Below, one piece after another: positions 55,338-63,355 of a stretch of 64,000 nt of DNA. The stretch covers positions 1 through 64,000 of the forward strand of contig NZ_JADEWV010000002.1 in the NCBI RefSeq assembly GCF_015207455.1. The letters run 5' to 3'. The translations under genes were made by a program, and so were the position numbers. Numbering within the stretch: position 1 is the stretch's first letter; every line of letters starts with the position of its first letter. Source of the stretch: Microcoleus sp. LEGE 07076. Its GTDB lineage: Bacteria > Cyanobacteriota > Cyanobacteriia > Cyanobacteriales > Microcoleaceae. The notes under the pieces are model-generated. The model worked only from the letters and a program-made list of their open reading frames with translations, was not told where the DNA came from and made no database searches.

Positions 55338-55691
55338 TTAAAACTCTTCCTCTCCATTAGTGTAGCTGCTTTCTTCAAACATTGATGTTAATCCAGTAAT
55401 TTTTACAGGTGGTCGATCTTTGAATTCTACGACAAATGACAATTCCCCACCCATTGCCGCGATATAACTTTGTAAAGTAGATACCAACAAATCCGCACGG
55501 CGTTCGAGTCGCGAGACATTTTCTTGACGCATATTTAATAATTCTGCCATGCGAATCTGAGTGAATTTCCTGGCTTTTCGTAAGTCTTGCAAGGTCATTT
55601 CTTCAGCCATTAATTCAACCGATCGCTTTTCGACTATTGCTCGTTGGTCGGGAGGTAAATTATCCATAACAGTCTTCAGGCTAATTGTCAT
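55338..55691 (-). CDS. HigA-like XRE antitoxin
   Basis: 117 residues. A central HTH (ARKFTQIRMAELLNMRQENV then SRLERR) is preceded by a helical segment and followed by a beta/helical tail. It overlaps the end of the upstream toxin gene by 11 bases. Toxin-first order matches HigBA modules. It probably neutralises the toxin and represses the operon. Confidence 0.82.
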   Translation of the reverse strand: MTISLKTVMDNLPPDQRAIVEKRSVELMAEEMTLQDLRKARKFTQIRMAELLNMRQENVSRLERRADLLVSTLQSYIAAMGGELSFVVEFKDRPPVKITGLTSMFEESSYTNGEEEF

Positions 55692-56052
55692 CTCTTTCTT
55701 GCTCCATTAACTTAGTCAAATGGTCGGCAAATCTACTATCTGCTATTTTAATTAGTTGCTTGTAAAATCGCTTTTCACTTCCACCAGATTTGTCCCCAGC
55801 TACCAACAAAATCGCAAATCGGTGGGGGTCAAATGCAAAAGCGACTCGCCAAACTCCATCAGCCGCCTGAAACCTAAGTTCTGACCTATTCGTGTAGGTA
55901 GAACCATTGAGGGTATCGACGTGAGGACGCTTGAGGTTGGGACCAAATTCTTGTAACAGTGTCAGTTTTGCTAAAAGCTCTAATCTGACATCAGTGGGGA
56001 ATTCGGTAAACTCAGAGTGAAAATCAGAGTGAAACTCAATGTTCCATGTCAT
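55681..56052 (-). CDS. RelE/HigB-superfamily toxin
   Basis: 123 residues. KLTLLQEFGPNLKRPHVDTL, LRFQAADGVWRVAFAFDP and KRFYKQLIKIADSRFADHL are the Gp49/HigB-like RelE signature. A likely ribosome-dependent mRNA interferase. First gene of the module, ATG start clear. Confidence 0.82.
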   Translation of the reverse strand: MTWNIEFHSDFHSEFTEFPTDVRLELLAKLTLLQEFGPNLKRPHVDTLNGSTYTNRSELRFQAADGVWRVAFAFDPHRFAILLVAGDKSGGSEKRFYKQLIKIADSRFADHLTKLMEQERDDN

Positions 56053-56169
56053 TTGGGTAGATTATGCCTTACATAGCATATTATAGGCAATAGTCGATCG
56101 AGTAACAATATGCACAACAGCTTAAAATAGATGTAAGGTAAGTCCCTATACCCTCACCCTACTAACACC

Positions 56170-56403
56170 ATGACACAGATCGCCCTTTCCGACCTTCCCG
56201 AAACCATCCAAGCCCTACTCACCCAAGCCATACAAACAGGCCAACCCCTCACCATCGCCCAAAACGATCGACCTGTTGCCATTATCTCCCCCATCAAAAA
56301 AAGTAAAAGATCGGCTTTCGGATCTGCCAAAGATAGCGGCAAAATTATCGGAGATATCATCGAGCCAACCTCGAACCTCGTAACTTGGGATGTCTTGTCA
56401 TGA
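56170..56403 (+). CDS. Phd/VapB-type antitoxin
   Basis: 77 residues. The N-terminal half (LPETIQALLTQAIQTGQPLT then NDRPVAII) has the Phd/YefM-like pattern; the disordered C-terminal half would wrap the toxin. Its TGA (56401-56403) overlaps the toxin's ATG at 56400 (ATGA). Confidence 0.82.
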   Translation: MTQIALSDLPETIQALLTQAIQTGQPLTIAQNDRPVAIISPIKKSKRSAFGSAKDSGKIIGDIIEPTSNLVTWDVLS

Positions 56404-56789
56404 AACTCTTGCTAGATACCCACATTTGGCTGTGGTATCGTCTTGGGAATCCTCGCCTATCAACTACTTTACAAATGGCGATCGCTAACGAAGAAAATGA
56501 ACTTTGGTTAAGTCCCATTAGCATTTGGGAAACCCTACTACTCGCTGAAAAAGCAAGATTAACCCTAGAACCTACACCAGAAAAATGGATTCAAAAAAGC
56601 CTACAAGAACTGGACACAAAAGAAGCAATTCTCACCAATGAAATTGCCATTCTGAGCCGTCAACTAGAGCTAATACACCAAGACCCCGCAGATCGATTCA
56701 TTGCCGCCACCGCCGTTCATTATGGACTAACCCTCGCCACCGTAGATGCCAACCTAACCCAAGCTACTTGCCTAAATACTCTCAGCTAA
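56400..56789 (+). CDS. VapC-type PIN-domain toxin
   Basis: 129 residues from ATG 56400. PIN motifs: LLLDTHIWLWY (first Asp), SPISIWETLLLAEKARL (Glu) and HQDPADRFIAATAVHYGLTL followed by VDANL (last Asp cluster). An endoribonuclease by family. Complete, in contrast to the frameshifted PIN gene at 1476. Confidence 0.88.
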   Translation: MKLLLDTHIWLWYRLGNPRLSTTLQMAIANEENELWLSPISIWETLLLAEKARLTLEPTPEKWIQKSLQELDTKEAILTNEIAILSRQLELIHQDPADRFIAATAVHYGLTLATVDANLTQATCLNTLS

Positions 56790-57025
56790 TCCAAAATTTT
56801 GCACGCCGCAAACAACTTTAATAATTCTGCCATGGGAAATTTGGATCGATTATGCCTTACATAGCATATTGTCAGACACCCGCGACTGCAAGAGTCCTGG
56901 GTTCCTTGTGGCGGTTTTGTTAATTACCTCACACATCGCGCCAAAAAAGCTCTACAATAAATACGGTTAAGGATGAACCCCCTTATCCAAGCAAAACCGA
57001 CTAGCAATTGCCCTGCTCTGGAAAT

Positions 57026-59116
57026 ATGACAACTCAGCCCTCTAAGCGCGAGCAAGTCGAACCACTGCTCGAAGCACTGGAATACATAGCTAAAATGGTT
57101 AAACAGCGTGGGGCCTTCAACCGAAATGATATTCCAATGCTGCTCTCGGCGAGTGGCGTTGACCCGGAATGGGGCGAAGAGCAACTCAAACGGTGGGCAA
57201 AAATATTAAAAGCAGTACACGAAGACTCTAGCAAGCTACAGCTTGGGCAAGACGCTTTGATGAAGTTTGGGATTCCCGAAGCTCACGCAATGCTGGCAGT
57301 CTCTATGGTGTCAACAGGAGCGTCCAAACCAGGGCCCTTGAGCGCTAGTAAGTCTCGGTTGGACTTTGGCACCCTAAGTTCAGGCGAACCTGTTAAGGCT
57401 GAATTCGAGGTGCAGGGCGGGCCTGGTGAAATTGTAGTCGAGAGCGATCGGGTTAGGGTAGACCCAAGGCAGTTTAGCGGTGGCAACACCAAAGTCAGGT
57501 TAGAAATCAGCCCTCTGAAAAGTGGACTCCTCTGGAGTTCAATTAAATTGGTAGCGGCGAATGAGACTTTAGAATTGCCCGTGATGGCTCAGTGGAGTGA
57601 TGTTCCCAGAACATATAGCCAACAGACTCTAGTCGTAGATGCTAATGGTGGCGGGGACTGCAAAACGATTGAGGAAGCGGTACAAAAAGCTCAAGCAGGC
57701 GCTACCATTGAGGTAAAAGCTGGTGTCTACCACCTCAGTCTGCCATTACAGATTGATAAACCCCTCGTGTTGGTTGGGGAGGGGATGGATGTGACGAAGA
57801 TAGTCTGTGAAGCTGAGGGCTATGTTGTCAAGTACACAGGTGATGGTCTGTTTTTGGCTCACGATTTGACATTTGATCATCAAGGGTTTCAGTGGGCTAA
57901 TGTGGTTGAGGTGGTGACAGGTGAGATTGATTTCCGTCGGTGTCGATTTACAGGCGGGTTTTTTGATGCAGGTGGGAATCGTGGTGGTACGGGTCTTTAT
58001 CTGTTAGGAGATGTACGCGGTAGCGTAGCAGAATGTGAGGCAACTAACAACGGTTTACATGGCATATGTGTAGCTAATCAAGCGCAACCAACCCTAGAAG
58101 CCAATACCTGTCAGGGTAATAAATATGCTGGCATAGTTTACTTCGGTAACGCGACAGGAACCGCCCGTCAAAACACCTGCACTGGTAATGAGCTGCATGG
58201 CATCGCTGTGCAAGAGCAAGCGCAACCAACCCTAGAAGCCAATACCTGTCAGGGTAATAAATATGGTGGCATAGTTTACTTCGGTAACGCGACAGGAACC
58301 GCCCGTCAAAACACCTGCACTGGTAATGAGATGAATGGCATCGGTGTGCAAGAGCAAGCGCAACCAACCCTAGAAGCCAATACCTGTCAGGGTAATAAAT
58401 GTGGTGGCATCGTTTACTTCGGTAACGCGACAGGAACCGCCCGTCAAAACACTTGCACTGGTAATGAGACGAATGGCATCAGTGTGCAAGGGGAAGCGCA
58501 ACCAGTCCTAGAAGCCAATACCTGTCAGGGTAATAAATATCGTGGCATCGCTTACTCCGGTAATGCGGCAGGAACTGCCCGCCAAAATACCTGCATTGGC
58601 AATGAAATAGATGGCATCAGTGTGCAAGAGCAAGCGCAACCAACATTAGAAGCCAATACCTGTCATGGTAATAAACAAGATGGCATTTACTACTCCGGTA
58701 ATGCGACAGGAACCGCCCGTCAAAATACCTGCACTGGTAATGAAATAGATGGCATCAGTGTGCAAGAGCAAGCGCAACCAACCTTAGAAGCCAATACTTG
58801 TCATGGGAATAAATATCGTGGCATCCTTTACTCCGGCAACGCGACAGGAACCGCCCGTCAAAACACCTGTACTAGCAATGAGACGAATGGCATCGCTGTG
58901 CAAGAGCAAGCGCAACCAACCCTAGAAGCAAATACCTGTCAGGGGAATAAACAAATTGGCATCGCTTACTTCGGTAATGCGACAGGAACCGCCCGTCAAA
59001 ACACCTGCACTGATAATGAGATGTATGGCATATATGTAGTATCCACTGCTGACCCTATACTAGAAAACAATTACTGTGATGAAAATCAACAGAAAAATCT
59101 TGAAGACCAGAGGTAA
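57026..59116 (+). CDS. Right-handed beta-helix repeat protein, putative client of the TerY-P-like triad
   Basis: 696 residues from ATG 57026 (an upstream TTG is also open). Residues about 1-85 are helical (PLLEALEYIAKMVKQRG, GEEQLKRWAKILKAV). About 92-190 form an Ig-like beta domain (SKSRLDFGTLSSGEPVKAEF). About 200-340 is the helix cap and first coils (GGGDCKTIEEAVQKAQAG, as in pectinesterase-like folds). Residues 346-667 are seven exact-length 46-residue repeats, each two coils (GIxVQEQAQPTLEANTC and GIxYxGNATGTARQNTC), then a cap. Asn and Cys ladders recur on every turn. No signal peptide is seen, so it is probably cytoplasmic. The vWA gene starts 68 bases downstream. Confidence 0.88.
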   Translation: MTTQPSKREQVEPLLEALEYIAKMVKQRGAFNRNDIPMLLSASGVDPEWGEEQLKRWAKILKAVHEDSSKLQLGQDALMKFGIPEAHAMLAVSMVSTGASKPGPLSASKSRLDFGTLSSGEPVKAEFEVQGGPGEIVVESDRVRVDPRQFSGGNTKVRLEISPLKSGLLWSSIKLVAANETLELPVMAQWSDVPRTYSQQTLVVDANGGGDCKTIEEAVQKAQAGATIEVKAGVYHLSLPLQIDKPLVLVGEGMDVTKIVCEAEGYVVKYTGDGLFLAHDLTFDHQGFQWANVVEVVTGEIDFRRCRFTGGFFDAGGNRGGTGLYLLGDVRGSVAECEATNNGLHGICVANQAQPTLEANTCQGNKYAGIVYFGNATGTARQNTCTGNELHGIAVQEQAQPTLEANTCQGNKYGGIVYFGNATGTARQNTCTGNEMNGIGVQEQAQPTLEANTCQGNKCGGIVYFGNATGTARQNTCTGNETNGISVQGEAQPVLEANTCQGNKYRGIAYSGNAAGTARQNTCIGNEIDGISVQEQAQPTLEANTCHGNKQDGIYYSGNATGTARQNTCTGNEIDGISVQEQAQPTLEANTCHGNKYRGILYSGNATGTARQNTCTSNETNGIAVQEQAQPTLEANTCQGNKQIGIAYFGNATGTARQNTCTDNEMYGIYVVSTADPILENNYCDENQQKNLEDQR
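58061..59026 (+). repeat. Seven tandem 138-bp coding repeats
   Basis: Exactly 7 x 138 bases, starting at codon Gly (GGCAT) in each unit. Neighbouring units are almost identical at DNA level, including synonymous sites, which points to recent tandem amplification and makes copy number prone to change. Confidence 0.92.
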
Positions 59117-59184
59117 AACTTGTGGTCTTCACGTCCAAAGCCCAAACTAAAATTTGATTGTTTGTAAAACAAAAAGGAGCTTGT

Positions 59185-59892
59185 ATGAGTATGTGGAATG
59201 TCGAAATGCCAGCTAGCGAACAGCGTCGCTTACCTGTGTACTTGCTGCTAGATACTTCTGGCAGCATGGCGGGCGCACCTATTGAGTCGCTGCGTATGGG
59301 ACTAGAACAGTTTAAAAATGAAGTTCTTGATGATGAAATTTCCCGCCCCTGCGTTCATGTTGGCGTTATTACTTTTGGCAATGATGCTGAGCTAGTCACG
59401 GGGAATTTACAACCTATCAATTCTTTCGAGCCGCCAACCCTAAATGCTGAAGGAGTGACGCGGTTAGATAAAGCTTTTAAAGTATTGCGCGAATCTATTG
59501 ACCGAGATTTAAGACGTCCAATACAAGGCGGACGCAGGGGTGATTTTAAGCCTATAGTTTTTATACTGACTGATGGGCAACCTACAGATGACAATGGCTA
59601 TGAAAGCGACCTTTTGTGGAAGCATGAGCATGAAGCCCTGATTAATCGTCCCACGGGGCAGATCAAAATTAATGAAATTGTTGCTGCTGGCTGCGGCGAA
59701 AATGTCCAAGACACTACCCTCAAGGCTATTAGCACAGGTAAAGCTTTTCGCATGGGGACAAGTCAAGCTGCCTTTGTTGCTCTGTTCAAGTTTGTGTCAA
59801 TGAGCATTGCTTGTTCCCTAGCGCAGGGTAGCAACCCCGATGATGGTTTTAATTATACACCGACACCAAATGGCATGACTCCTATTCCTTAA
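59185..59892 (+). CDS. TerY-like vWA-domain protein
   Basis: 235 residues from ATG 59185, preceded by AAGGAG. The vWA fold shows a complete MIDAS: LLLDTSGSMAG (DxSxS), the Thr in EGVTRLDKAF and the Asp in ILTDGQPTDD. Length and the RRLPVYLLLDTSGSM start match TerY, the adaptor of tellurite/stress (Ter) systems. It likely recognises targets or bridges kinase and phosphatase. It is first of the vWA-PP2C-kinase order. Confidence 0.92.
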   Translation: MSMWNVEMPASEQRRLPVYLLLDTSGSMAGAPIESLRMGLEQFKNEVLDDEISRPCVHVGVITFGNDAELVTGNLQPINSFEPPTLNAEGVTRLDKAFKVLRESIDRDLRRPIQGGRRGDFKPIVFILTDGQPTDDNGYESDLLWKHEHEALINRPTGQIKINEIVAAGCGENVQDTTLKAISTGKAFRMGTSQAAFVALFKFVSMSIACSLAQGSNPDDGFNYTPTPNGMTPIP

Positions 59893-59959
59893 AAAAGTCG
59901 CAACTTTCACGCTCTCAGGGTTCAATTAACCCTCGTTTCCCACCTACCGGATTTTTTTT

Positions 59960-61513
59960 ATGAAGCAAGGTTTTGCAATTGGCGATCGAATTTTGGGTCG
60001 TTCTGGCGATACTCATCCTGACTGGAGTGTTGCCCATGCCGTTCTGCAATCATACCAAATAATAGGAGCCAGCGCCGTCGGCAAATTACACTTAGCAAAG
60101 GGAACGCCGCGAGACGATGCTTTTGCAATTCGTTCCTACGGCCCTTGGTTAGCAGTCGGAGTCTCCGATGGTGTAGGTTCGCGCCCTCTTTCCCGCTATG
60201 GCGCAACCTATGTAGCGGAAGCACTGGCATCTCTGTTACTGCGTTCTTTTCCCCCGTCTTTGCAAGAGGAACTGAAGGCAAACGAAACGGTTGTTCCTTC
60301 CACTCACAAATCAAATTATTCTCTATCATATCAGGAGTTAAAACCCGATATACCTAACACACAAATCATACAGAAAGAAGCTAAGAAGAGTTTAGGATTC
60401 GAGGATTCAAAAGATAGCGACGAAAAAAAGTATCGTGATGAAAGCATAAAAGAGCATTGGGAAGATGCCTTGGATTTATTGAGTAAAAACATGAGGGAAT
60501 GCGGTTCGCAACCACACTCTAATTCAACAGATTTACAGCAAGCTGCATCAGTAGGATTGTGGTCTAATAACAACCCTGTTGTTGACCAAGAAAACGAACC
60601 CTCGAATGAAGGTGATAGTAATGATTTAGACGAGCGAGAAAACATATCAAATGAAGAAAATAGTAATGATTTAGACGAGCGCAAAAATACATTAGATGAA
60701 GAAAATACTAATGATTCAAACGAGGAGAATAAACCAGGAAATGAAGGTGATATTAATGCTTTAGCCGATCAAAATGAACCTATTAAGGAAGATGATGGTA
60801 ATGCTTTAGACGATAAAGACAACTCATCAAATGAAGCTGATAATAATAAGGCTTTAGACGCGCAAGAAAAACCACTAAATGAAGATGAGAGTAATGCTTC
60901 AAACAATACTAGAGGGCAATCAGAAAAAACTGAGGAAGAGCAAAAAGATAATTGCGCTCCTAAAAATTCTTCTGATTTAGAAGAAAAAATGCGCCAAGCA
61001 TTTAAAGAGGTTCATCAGACTTTAAGCAGGCAGGCCACATATCTGGGAGTAGAGCTAAAAGACCTCAGTTGCACAGCATTAGGACTGCTTCTCAATGTAG
61101 AAACGGGCGAGGTAGCTGTAGGACAGGTAGGCGATGGAGTGATACTGGGGCTGACTGCACAAAAAGAAATCAAACATTTAGTTGAAGCTGAGAACACAGG
61201 AGACTCGCAATCTACTCATACCATAAATCGTTCTGACTTTGAACAGCATCTAAAAGTGGAAAGTATGTCGCTTTCAGATCAAGATTTTCAATCTTTATTT
61301 GTGATGACAGACGGGGTATCAGAGGATGTAATTTATTCGGAACCATCGGCTTTAAATAAATGGGGACAAGCGATAGATAACAACCTCAGAAATTCTGCAA
61401 ATTTAGCAGAATCGAGTGTTGGTATGTTGAATTGGTTGGCCACCTATCATATCCCTGGAAGCTGGGACGATCGCACGTTGATAGTGATTACAAAGAATCA
61501 GGATACACCGTAA
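59960..61513 (+). CDS. PP2C-family protein phosphatase with long acidic insert
   Basis: 517 residues. PP2C halves: about 35-110 (RDDAFAIRSYGPW, VSDGVGSRPLSRYGA) and about 335-515 (DLSCTALGLLLNVETGEVAV, GQVGDGVILGL, VMTDGVSED, SWDDRTLIVI); metal-binding Asp residues are intact. They are separated by about 225 residues of low complexity, rich in Asn, Glu and Asp, with imperfect units such as NEENSNDLDER (mainly 60594-60915). The insert is unusual for the family and may be a flexible or regulatory loop. Its TAA overlaps the kinase ATG (TAATG). Confidence 0.92.
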   Translation: MKQGFAIGDRILGRSGDTHPDWSVAHAVLQSYQIIGASAVGKLHLAKGTPRDDAFAIRSYGPWLAVGVSDGVGSRPLSRYGATYVAEALASLLLRSFPPSLQEELKANETVVPSTHKSNYSLSYQELKPDIPNTQIIQKEAKKSLGFEDSKDSDEKKYRDESIKEHWEDALDLLSKNMRECGSQPHSNSTDLQQAASVGLWSNNNPVVDQENEPSNEGDSNDLDERENISNEENSNDLDERKNTLDEENTNDSNEENKPGNEGDINALADQNEPIKEDDGNALDDKDNSSNEADNNKALDAQEKPLNEDESNASNNTRGQSEKTEEEQKDNCAPKNSSDLEEKMRQAFKEVHQTLSRQATYLGVELKDLSCTALGLLLNVETGEVAVGQVGDGVILGLTAQKEIKHLVEAENTGDSQSTHTINRSDFEQHLKVESMSLSDQDFQSLFVMTDGVSEDVIYSEPSALNKWGQAIDNNLRNSANLAESSVGMLNWLATYHIPGSWDDRTLIVITKNQDTP

Positions 61514-62898
61514 TGCAAAAAGTAACCATAACGCAACAACTCAGCGATCTGCTGCCATACCAAATTGAAATTGGTGATAATCCCGACCACATCGGCGGTG
61601 AAGGCAAAATATTTTTTAGCCTCGATAACCGCTATGTGGTTAAAATCTATAACCAACCAGGGCCTGATAAAAAGAATTTGCTGGAAAATGTCATCAAATT
61701 AGGCAAAAACTTAGGCGAAGATGCTCATTTATTAGCTTGGCCTCTGGGAATTGTCGATAAGTTAGATGCAGAAGATTGTTTGGGATGTGTTGGTCTAAAA
61801 GTACCCTCATCCCATGTCAACTTAACTAAACTAATCTACACACGCAATGAAGCTATTAAACAAATTCAGCAGGGAAGAAACTGGCTTGATTATTTGAAAA
61901 TAGCTCGAAGTATTGCAGCAGCAGTTCGCACGATTCACGGCAAAGGAATGGCTCATGCTGACTTGCACTGGAAAAACTTTTTAGTTGATATATCTACTGG
62001 TGAAGCTATTTTAATTGACCTCGATGGTTTAGTAGTTAAGGGTTTTTTACCACCGCAAGTCAAGGGGGTACGAGGCTTTATCGCACCGGAAGTGGAAATG
62101 GGACTGGCGAAGCCTTCAGAAGCTACGGATCGCCATAGTGCGGCTGTACTGATTTTGTGGACTTTGCTGTTCCGCAATGTGATGGAGCCTCAAATTTGCT
62201 ATGATGCGGAGGATGATAATAACGATGGCATTCTTGGCTACGGGGAAAAAGCTTGTTTTAGCGAGCATCCGAGCGATCGGCGCAATTGGCCACCAAGCAT
62301 TGGTTTGCCCTTAATTCGCCAGGGATTTCCGAGTTTCAAAATGTTAACGCCAAAGCTTCAGGAGTTGACTGAAAAAACACTAATTGACGGCCTTCATGAT
62401 GCCAAGAAACGCCCGCAGGTATGGCAATGGGAGAAGGCATTGGCTGAAGCGCAGGATGTGACTATCTGTTGTTCTCACTGCGAGCAATCTTTTATCTATC
62501 CTTACTGGATTCACCCAGCACCGCGTCGCCACTGCCCTTTTTGCGGTACGAGCGTGCGATCGCCTCGGCCGGTAGTATTAGAGTTATTAGAAGAAAAAAC
62601 TAAAGGAATTTACCTCCCAACTCGATCGATTGTTTTAGATCGCGATCGGCCTTTATTTGTTGATACGATCGAGCGTTCTCAAATCCCGCCTTTTAACCGT
62701 GATGGTTTACCAATTTTGGGGCGGACTATCTGGGATGCTAACAAAAGCATACATTGCCTGATTAGTGAAAATGGTACTGCGTGGCAACTTCTGACTGCTG
62801 GAAGTGGCATTATTAAATGTGGTAAATCTGTAGAATTGCGACGGGGTTTAGTGCTTTATTTTTCTGATGCTAAGCGTTTGTTGCGAGTAGTAGAGTAG
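61513..62898 (+). CDS. Protein kinase with C-terminal zinc ribbon (TerY-P triad kinase)
   Basis: 461 residues from ATG 61513, coupled by TAATG to the phosphatase. Kinase domain about 10-315: glycine-rich GGEGKIFF, the ATP-binding Lys in VVKIYNQ, catalytic GMAHADLHWKNFLVD (about 145-159), DLDGL as the DFG equivalent and FIAPEVE as APE. A zinc ribbon (CSHC..C..C, about 320-345) and a beta-rich C-terminal domain follow. The divergent HADLHWKN loop fits the triad kinases rather than Hanks-type PknB kinases. It presumably opposes the adjacent PP2C on a shared substrate. Confidence 0.92.
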   Translation: MQKVTITQQLSDLLPYQIEIGDNPDHIGGEGKIFFSLDNRYVVKIYNQPGPDKKNLLENVIKLGKNLGEDAHLLAWPLGIVDKLDAEDCLGCVGLKVPSSHVNLTKLIYTRNEAIKQIQQGRNWLDYLKIARSIAAAVRTIHGKGMAHADLHWKNFLVDISTGEAILIDLDGLVVKGFLPPQVKGVRGFIAPEVEMGLAKPSEATDRHSAAVLILWTLLFRNVMEPQICYDAEDDNNDGILGYGEKACFSEHPSDRRNWPPSIGLPLIRQGFPSFKMLTPKLQELTEKTLIDGLHDAKKRPQVWQWEKALAEAQDVTICCSHCEQSFIYPYWIHPAPRRHCPFCGTSVRSPRPVVLELLEEKTKGIYLPTRSIVLDRDRPLFVDTIERSQIPPFNRDGLPILGRTIWDANKSIHCLISENGTAWQLLTAGSGIIKCGKSVELRRGLVLYFSDAKRLLRVVE

Positions 62899-63355
62899 CA
62901 GAAATGGTTGATAATTGCGATCTAATTCCTGATTATTTCCTACTTACACGAATCACCATTGTTCGGAAATATTTTAGACTAATTGTATAAAATATGATAA
63001 TTATTTTAATTTGATTTGAGCGAAAGAGCGATCGCCCTGACTTTCCCATCTCCATACAAGCGATCGCCTCCTCCAAGCTTCCCGATCGGAACTTATAAGC
63101 TGTTGGGCATCTAAATTGTATTTTTTGTGCGGGCTTTCTGGCCCACCCCACAAGAACTTTATCAAATTTGACTATACAGTTTAAATGCACAACAACTTAT
63201 CGGACAATTCTGTAGATTGCTCCCCAACAGCTAGAAAATTACCTACATCTTCTCTCCTCTTCCTTTGTGACCTTAGCGTCTTCGCGGTTCAACAATTCCG
63301 TACTTGTCCAGTTTTGCGCTACGCTAAACAAAAAAATCTCAACAAACGTACACAA
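62899..63355. other. Intergenic region
   Basis: 457 bases after the kinase gene. HIP1-type GCGATCGCC octamers near 63029 and 63060. A GGGCTTTCTGGCCC palindrome is followed by ACCCCACAAG near 63130, related to the hairpin at position 1. The inverse of the GA-rich motif at 11080 lies near 63250-63290. No gene is supported. Confidence 0.5.

Follow-up and report, generated by a model that had tools for sequence, protein, structure and literature searches.

The closest described relatives of the locus reported here are the TerY-P systems. As related in PMC11090510, the TerY-P triad of Anantharaman et al. (2012) comprises a vWA protein, a PP2C phosphatase and a kinase with a C-terminal zinc ribbon, and TerY-P, which is attached to restriction systems, is hypothesised to act as a phospho-switch that senses metals. 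The OB-fold variant of TerY-P is anti-phage (Gao et al., 2020, via PMC7699616 and PMC11090510), and a zinc-ribbon TerY-P triad is attached to an accessory module in Type II and III-A CoCoNuT systems (PMC11090510). In these sources the triggers and targets of TerY-P are stated only as hypothesis.

In the window examined here (the whole 64,000-nucleotide stretch of DNA that was analysed) a vWA, PP2C and zinc-ribbon kinase triad, in the order given in that account of Anantharaman et al., is preceded by a gene for a beta-helix repeat protein, and the locus supplies a linked, dedicated partner for the switch. A link between a beta-helix protein and TerY-P was not found in the literature searched, a scope outside which the founding TerY-P paper lies. 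Compared with the triad as PMC11090510 relates it, the window has one vWA gene only and adds a fourth, diversified beta-helix/ASH gene; its kinase falls in a deep, separate clade and the locus has no ter genes. The three-gene logic is also that of the Gao anti-phage system as conveyed by PMC7699616 and PMC11090510, but the kinase of that system has an OB fold, whereas the window proteins gave no match to the PADLOC TerY models, which we took to represent the Gao variant, and reached only E 0.028 with PADLOC STK_OB. The resemblance to CoCoNuT lies in the attachment of an accessory module to the triad; the McrBC GTPase, CnuH and CnuE are absent from our locus (ORF list, Pfam scans). Mokosh is similar in another respect, in that the beta-helix/ASH head of TerY-P partners has a counterpart of the same kind on cyanobacterial MkoA-like helicases, but the cassette contains neither a helicase nor MkoB and the Mokosh-like pair of this genome is a separate locus (G000:C438). 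Finally, the repeat protein shares its coil fold and N/G-I consensus with NosD-type parallel beta-helix repeats (TIGR03804, PF13229), from which it differs in its probable cytoplasmic location, its near-identical DNA repeats, its apparently selected variable positions and its additional N-terminal helical and ASH-like domains. The cassette seems to be a cell-defence or stress device that has gone unrecognised, with the repeat protein as its sensor.

The triad and its relation to ter plasmids

The features of the cassette and of the insertion that carries it are listed below; G089 is a genome of the same class as the window genome but of a different order.

56112..63270, no strand assigned: strain-specific insertion of ~7.2 kb with a PIN gene and the four-gene cassette (blastn to genus-mate G350)
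57026..59116, plus strand: beta-helix repeat protein, 696 aa (Pfam Beta_helix, E 1.6e-63; orthologue at the same place in G089)
59185..59892, plus strand: TerY-like vWA protein, MIDAS intact (Pfam VWA, E 8.5e-8; aligned with TerY-P vWA proteins)
59960..61513, plus strand: PP2C phosphatase with a long acidic insert (Pfam PP2C_2, E 1e-27; alignment)
60597..60896, plus strand: 45-bp minisatellite encoding part of the acidic PP2C insert (TRF)
61513..62898, plus strand: TerY-P kinase with kinase domain, zinc ribbon and C-terminal beta-rich domain (tblastn; alignment)
62470..62544, plus strand: zinc ribbon of the kinase, C320-C323 / C341-C344 (four cysteines invariant in six kinases)

The first-pass annotation had described four consecutive plus-strand genes with intact vWA, PP2C and kinase residues and an overlap between the last two genes, and closer inspection agrees on each point. 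The beta-helix, vWA, PP2C and kinase genes are successive plus-strand ORFs at 57026-62898 (ORF list), and TAATG at 61511-61515 contains both the PP2C stop and the kinase start, with one base common to both. In alignments the MIDAS residues (DTSGS, T and D) of the vWA protein, which is 35-37% identical to TerY-P vWA proteins, the Asp pairs of PP2C and D150, N155 and D169 of the kinase are conserved across homologues, while K44 of the kinase is present in only part of the alignment. The kinase scores under the Pfam cut-off (Pkinase, E 9e-7), and its zinc-ribbon cysteines C320, C323, C341 and C344 are invariant among the six kinases aligned. Between the two halves of PP2C lies an acidic low-complexity stretch of about 200 residues, built partly from the 45-bp tandem repeats (TRF); this insert is much longer than that of the G089 orthologue. 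A promoter and terminator scan of the cassette gave matches no commoner than those in shuffled sequence, with no terminator-like site on the plus strand between the four genes.

The window kinase is 29-30% identical to kinases of enterobacterial ter plasmids over up to 94% of its length (tblastn, E 9e-45), and 2317 plasmid records have some match to it. The gene order in the one enterobacterial plasmid examined is vWA, TerD, vWA, TerY-C, PP2C and then the kinase, and that of a Hymenobacter plasmid is TerD, vWA, vWA, PP2C, kinase, so that the order vWA-PP2C-kinase is common to the window cassette and the ter plasmids. As judged by sequence comparison, the triad is homologous to the TerY-P triad of these plasmids, an assignment made at first pass and upheld by both homology and gene order: the locus has a vWA protein with an intact MIDAS, an adjacent PP2C with its metal-binding Asp residues and a zinc-ribbon kinase homologous to those of ter loci. 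In the kinase tree the window kinase groups with its G089 orthologue in a deep clade of their own.

Neither TerC nor TerD was found among the ORFs surrounding the cassette that were scanned or read; an association with ter genes is common for TerY-P but not strictly defining. The earlier description of the locus as a stand-alone variant without TerC or TerD is correct as to the local absence of ter genes, but its stand-alone status is uncertain because TerD paralogues occur in the genome, with six TerD-family matches elsewhere. Three TerD-family matches lie in a row on one contig (G000:C360:2-2569). The same genome also contains a second vWA-PP2C-kinase triad (G000:C459; L051 5582-9771) with a different, longer kinase of 809 aa, the vWA of which matches PADLOC TerY weakly.

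Insertion site and partner genes in other genomes

The insertion sits between the mnmG/toxin-antitoxin genes and the psbB side. In genus-mate G350 the site is empty: homology (blastn, L066) breaks off at 56111 and picks up again at 63271, 10 bp separating the two blocks, and the PIN gene and four genes therefore make up an inserted segment of about 7.2 kb. The site is a hotspot, occupied in other genus-mates by a DNA methylase, a transposase or sensor kinases. No exact 12-mers common to both flanks of the insertion were found. The PIN-domain (VapC-like) gene lies within the insertion at 56385-56789, just upstream of the cassette. A toxin-antitoxin pair of HTH and Gp49-like (HigB type) genes at 55338-56052 is placed outside the insertion, since G350 and G333 have it too at the corresponding site.

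The kinase is patchily distributed, being carried by one of the 30 genus members listed and by one of 29 genomes in the family of G089. In a sample of 292 genomes from across the phylum, G089 was the only genome besides that of the window to yield the head domain of the beta-helix protein, and likewise the only other one with a close kinase orthologue. In G089 the order beta-helix, vWA, PP2C, kinase is the same, and the kinase is 59% identical to that of the window. In G231, G116 and G325, which have a more canonical TerY-P kinase, a gene for a short beta-helix with a HYDIN/ASH-like Ig domain follows directly after the kinase (canonical partners, below). Each of the five long-form TerY-P loci that oxygenic cyanobacteria yielded thus has a beta-helix/ASH neighbour; a wider search of the class added no further TerY-P loci. 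When profiles were compared with hhalign, the beta-helix start and the Ig domain of the canonical partners both matched the window protein with the domain order swapped, the match being weak with the canonical partner as a single sequence and firmer with more rows. The model of the canonical Ig domain also matches HYDIN 2e6j.

The first-pass annotation had proposed that the beta-helix protein is a dedicated substrate or effector of the triad and that the four-gene order should be sought in other cyanobacteria. The order does recur, in G089, and together with the neighbours at 5/5 loci this bears out the dedicated linkage; no triad lacking an adjoining beta-helix gene was seen in close relatives, as those without the beta-helix gene lack the whole cassette. 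TerY-P is nevertheless found without a beta-helix gene in G016 and G018, from other classes of the phylum, and on ter plasmids, so the gene is not essential to the triad. A single origin of the beta-helix link is not shown by the kinase tree, in which the window type appears as a separate clade.

In G278 (L047 5975-9999) a partial canonical partner gene has two vWA genes and a CAP-like gene as neighbours; the genome yielded no TerY-P kinase, and the locus looks eroded. A wider scan of genome contigs, seeded on exact short peptides and so liable to miss distant relatives, gave no match to the beta-helix head and a single locus with the kinase, in a Roseilinea MAG. There the kinase homologue (L052 9959-11383) is split into two ORFs and has no upstream PP2C or vWA gene; it may be a remnant, a transfer or a binning error. 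Viral contigs gave no match in the scan, and neither the beta-helix head nor the canonical partner was found on plasmids.

The same module was encountered on helicases. The profile of the canonical partner matches the N-terminus of proteins of ~1600-1700 residues in G000:C438 and G056, and in a profile search a genus-mate has a similar open frame with a canonical-partner match. The two proteins examined are SF1 helicases with AAA_11/AAA_12 domains which match MkoA of Mokosh (E 7e-107 and 4e-114), and the gene after each matches MkoB. TerY-P kinases match the PADLOC MkoA model near positions 100-230, and MkoA is therefore normally kinase-like where these variants carry the beta-helix/ASH head. 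The shared module ties TerY-P to Mokosh-type helicases, and the fusions may be taken to support a defence role by guilt by association, which is not proof. At G000:C438:88876-96296 (L049 8877-16297) the beta-helix/ASH head and MkoA-like helicase form one protein of 1729 aa, followed by MkoB, and in G056 (L048 6102-16018) the corresponding pair comes directly after a type I restriction gene.

The beta-helix protein and its coils

The following features were located within the beta-helix gene.

57059..57310, plus strand: N-terminal five-helix domain, residues 12-95 (AF2 secondary structure)
57341..57598, plus strand: Ig-like HYDIN/ASH-type domain, residues 106-191 (Foldseek; hhalign)
58079..59031, plus strand: tandem array of 138-bp units, 6.9 copies (TRF; pN/pS)

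The earlier identification of a beta-helix protein holds for the repeat region, but the protein also has the N-terminal helical and Ig/HYDIN-like domains. In the AlphaFold2 model (pLDDT 87 on average and about 97 across the repeats) the beta-helix spans residue 201 to about 688, and the repeat clears TIGR03804 by a wide margin (222 bits, cut-off 19.45). The Ig-like domain matches the HYDIN PapD-like domain 2e6j (Foldseek, E 1.4e-4) and the Ig domain of the canonical partners (hhalign, probability 75%, E 2.6e-5).

Each 138-bp unit encodes two 23-residue coils which alternate in type, and coils of the same type within a gene share about 86-88% of their DNA. The differences between them are concentrated, with 43-52% falling in four of the 23 codons (positions 8, 9, 12 and 14). 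At these positions pN is 0.400 in the window gene and 0.419 and 0.402 in two G089 genes, compared with overall pS values of 0.214, 0.184 and 0.170, respectively; since the coils are not independent and the repeats recombine, such dN/dS-like ratios are approximate. The bootstrap intervals of the pN excess (0.058-0.237 for the window, 0.111-0.278 and 0.182-0.256 for the G089 genes) all exclude zero, framework pN is 0.026-0.057 in the three genes, and columns identified as variable in one gene proved variable in the other genes too. Judging by the DSSP register of the model, residues 12 and 14 are expected to face outwards on strand PB1, since their neighbours 11 and 13 are conserved hydrophobic residues, and positions 8 and 9 should lie in the preceding turn. 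From these comparisons the exposed coil residues appear to be diversified by natural selection, in a long array known from two genomes only.

The second G089 gene is an orphan of 1706 codons about 70 kb from the cassette (L024 5066-10186), with 57 coils, one of which has a 16-residue insertion. The constant heads of the two G089 paralogues, which are of recent origin, are 97.9% identical (pN 0.017, pS 0.029), yet the proteins have no identical coils in common, and pN at the variable positions of paired coils is 0.376. Framework pS between them (0.15) is greater than the constant-region pS of 0.029, a sign that recombination has shuffled the coils. Repeated 18-mers are almost absent from other beta-helix genes in related genomes. 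Diversification of the DGR type was considered, but the variable codons do not look adenine-specific by eye.

Proposed role of the cassette

In our view, with about even confidence, the locus is a TerY-P-type four-gene cassette that serves as a defence device against phage or other invaders, in which the beta-helix protein is responsible for recognition and regulation. The constant head and diversified face make this protein look like a recognition subunit rather than merely a kinase substrate. In the mechanism that we infer, the vWA adaptor protein, PP2C and zinc-ribbon kinase would form a reversible phospho-switch, to which the helical and ASH-like head of a cytoplasmic beta-helix protein would dock. 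Its stacked coils could offer a ligand-binding face with four variable residues per coil, diversified through coil duplication, shuffling and selection. Binding of a ligand from an invader or from damage would tip the balance between kinase and phosphatase, and the signal would be passed on by phosphorylation of the beta-helix protein itself or of a putative downstream target, for which no candidate was found. The more specific picture of an intracellular immune receptor, in which a constant head carries an expandable array of 14 to about 57 coils, each exposing a few variable residues under selection, with recombination shuffling the coils and the kinase and phosphatase reading them out, is put forward tentatively, as a possibility that we would not yet favour. 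If true, it would be a solenoid recognition module similar in logic to LRR or TALE arrays. The locus provides a testable idea, namely that a diversified solenoid recognises something and drives a phospho-switch.

The proposal at first pass, in which the beta-helix protein is a dedicated phospho-substrate or effector whose face Thr and Ser residues are reversibly phosphorylated, altering assembly or binding, seems to us rather unlikely. The linkage of its gene to the triad is as expected of such a substrate, and Thr at coil position 2, beside the core Cys, is kept in nearly every coil (13/13, 18/18 and 54/56), so phosphorylation of the face is possible. However, this Thr may be structural, the canonical partners have a short beta-helix without a Thr ladder, and a fixed substrate leaves selection for changing residues unexplained. 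The hypervariable residues around PB1 are the strongest repeat signal and fit recognition better.

It is quite unlikely that the cassette responds to stress or metals in the manner of the ter operon (tellurite, oxidants), in which case the beta-helix protein would be a scaffold and the TerD paralogues would act in trans. This reading draws on the homology of the triad to ter plasmids, on the six TerD-family matches in the genome and on genes adjoining a related triad in G018 which look TerD-like by eye; no ter gene was seen at the locus, and neither a diversified repeat face nor the Mokosh-type fusions would be expected of a metal scaffold.

We find it highly doubtful that the coil variability reflects relaxed constraint on an exposed loop of recent repeats, with no recognition role. 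The repeats are young and recombining, and beta-helix coils generally tolerate change at such sites, but relaxed sites should not exceed synonymous divergence, and pN is about twice pS in three genes in cross-validated columns.

The reading of the beta-helix protein as a carbohydrate-active enzyme, surface protein or adhesin placed beside the triad by chance, suggested by Foldseek matches to phage tail proteins, alginate lyases and epimerases, is extremely improbable and was rejected on anatomy, as these matches are at the level of the fold (about 8-16% identity), no signal-peptide-like start is seen by eye, one Cys is stacked in each coil and the linkage recurs at every one of the five loci.
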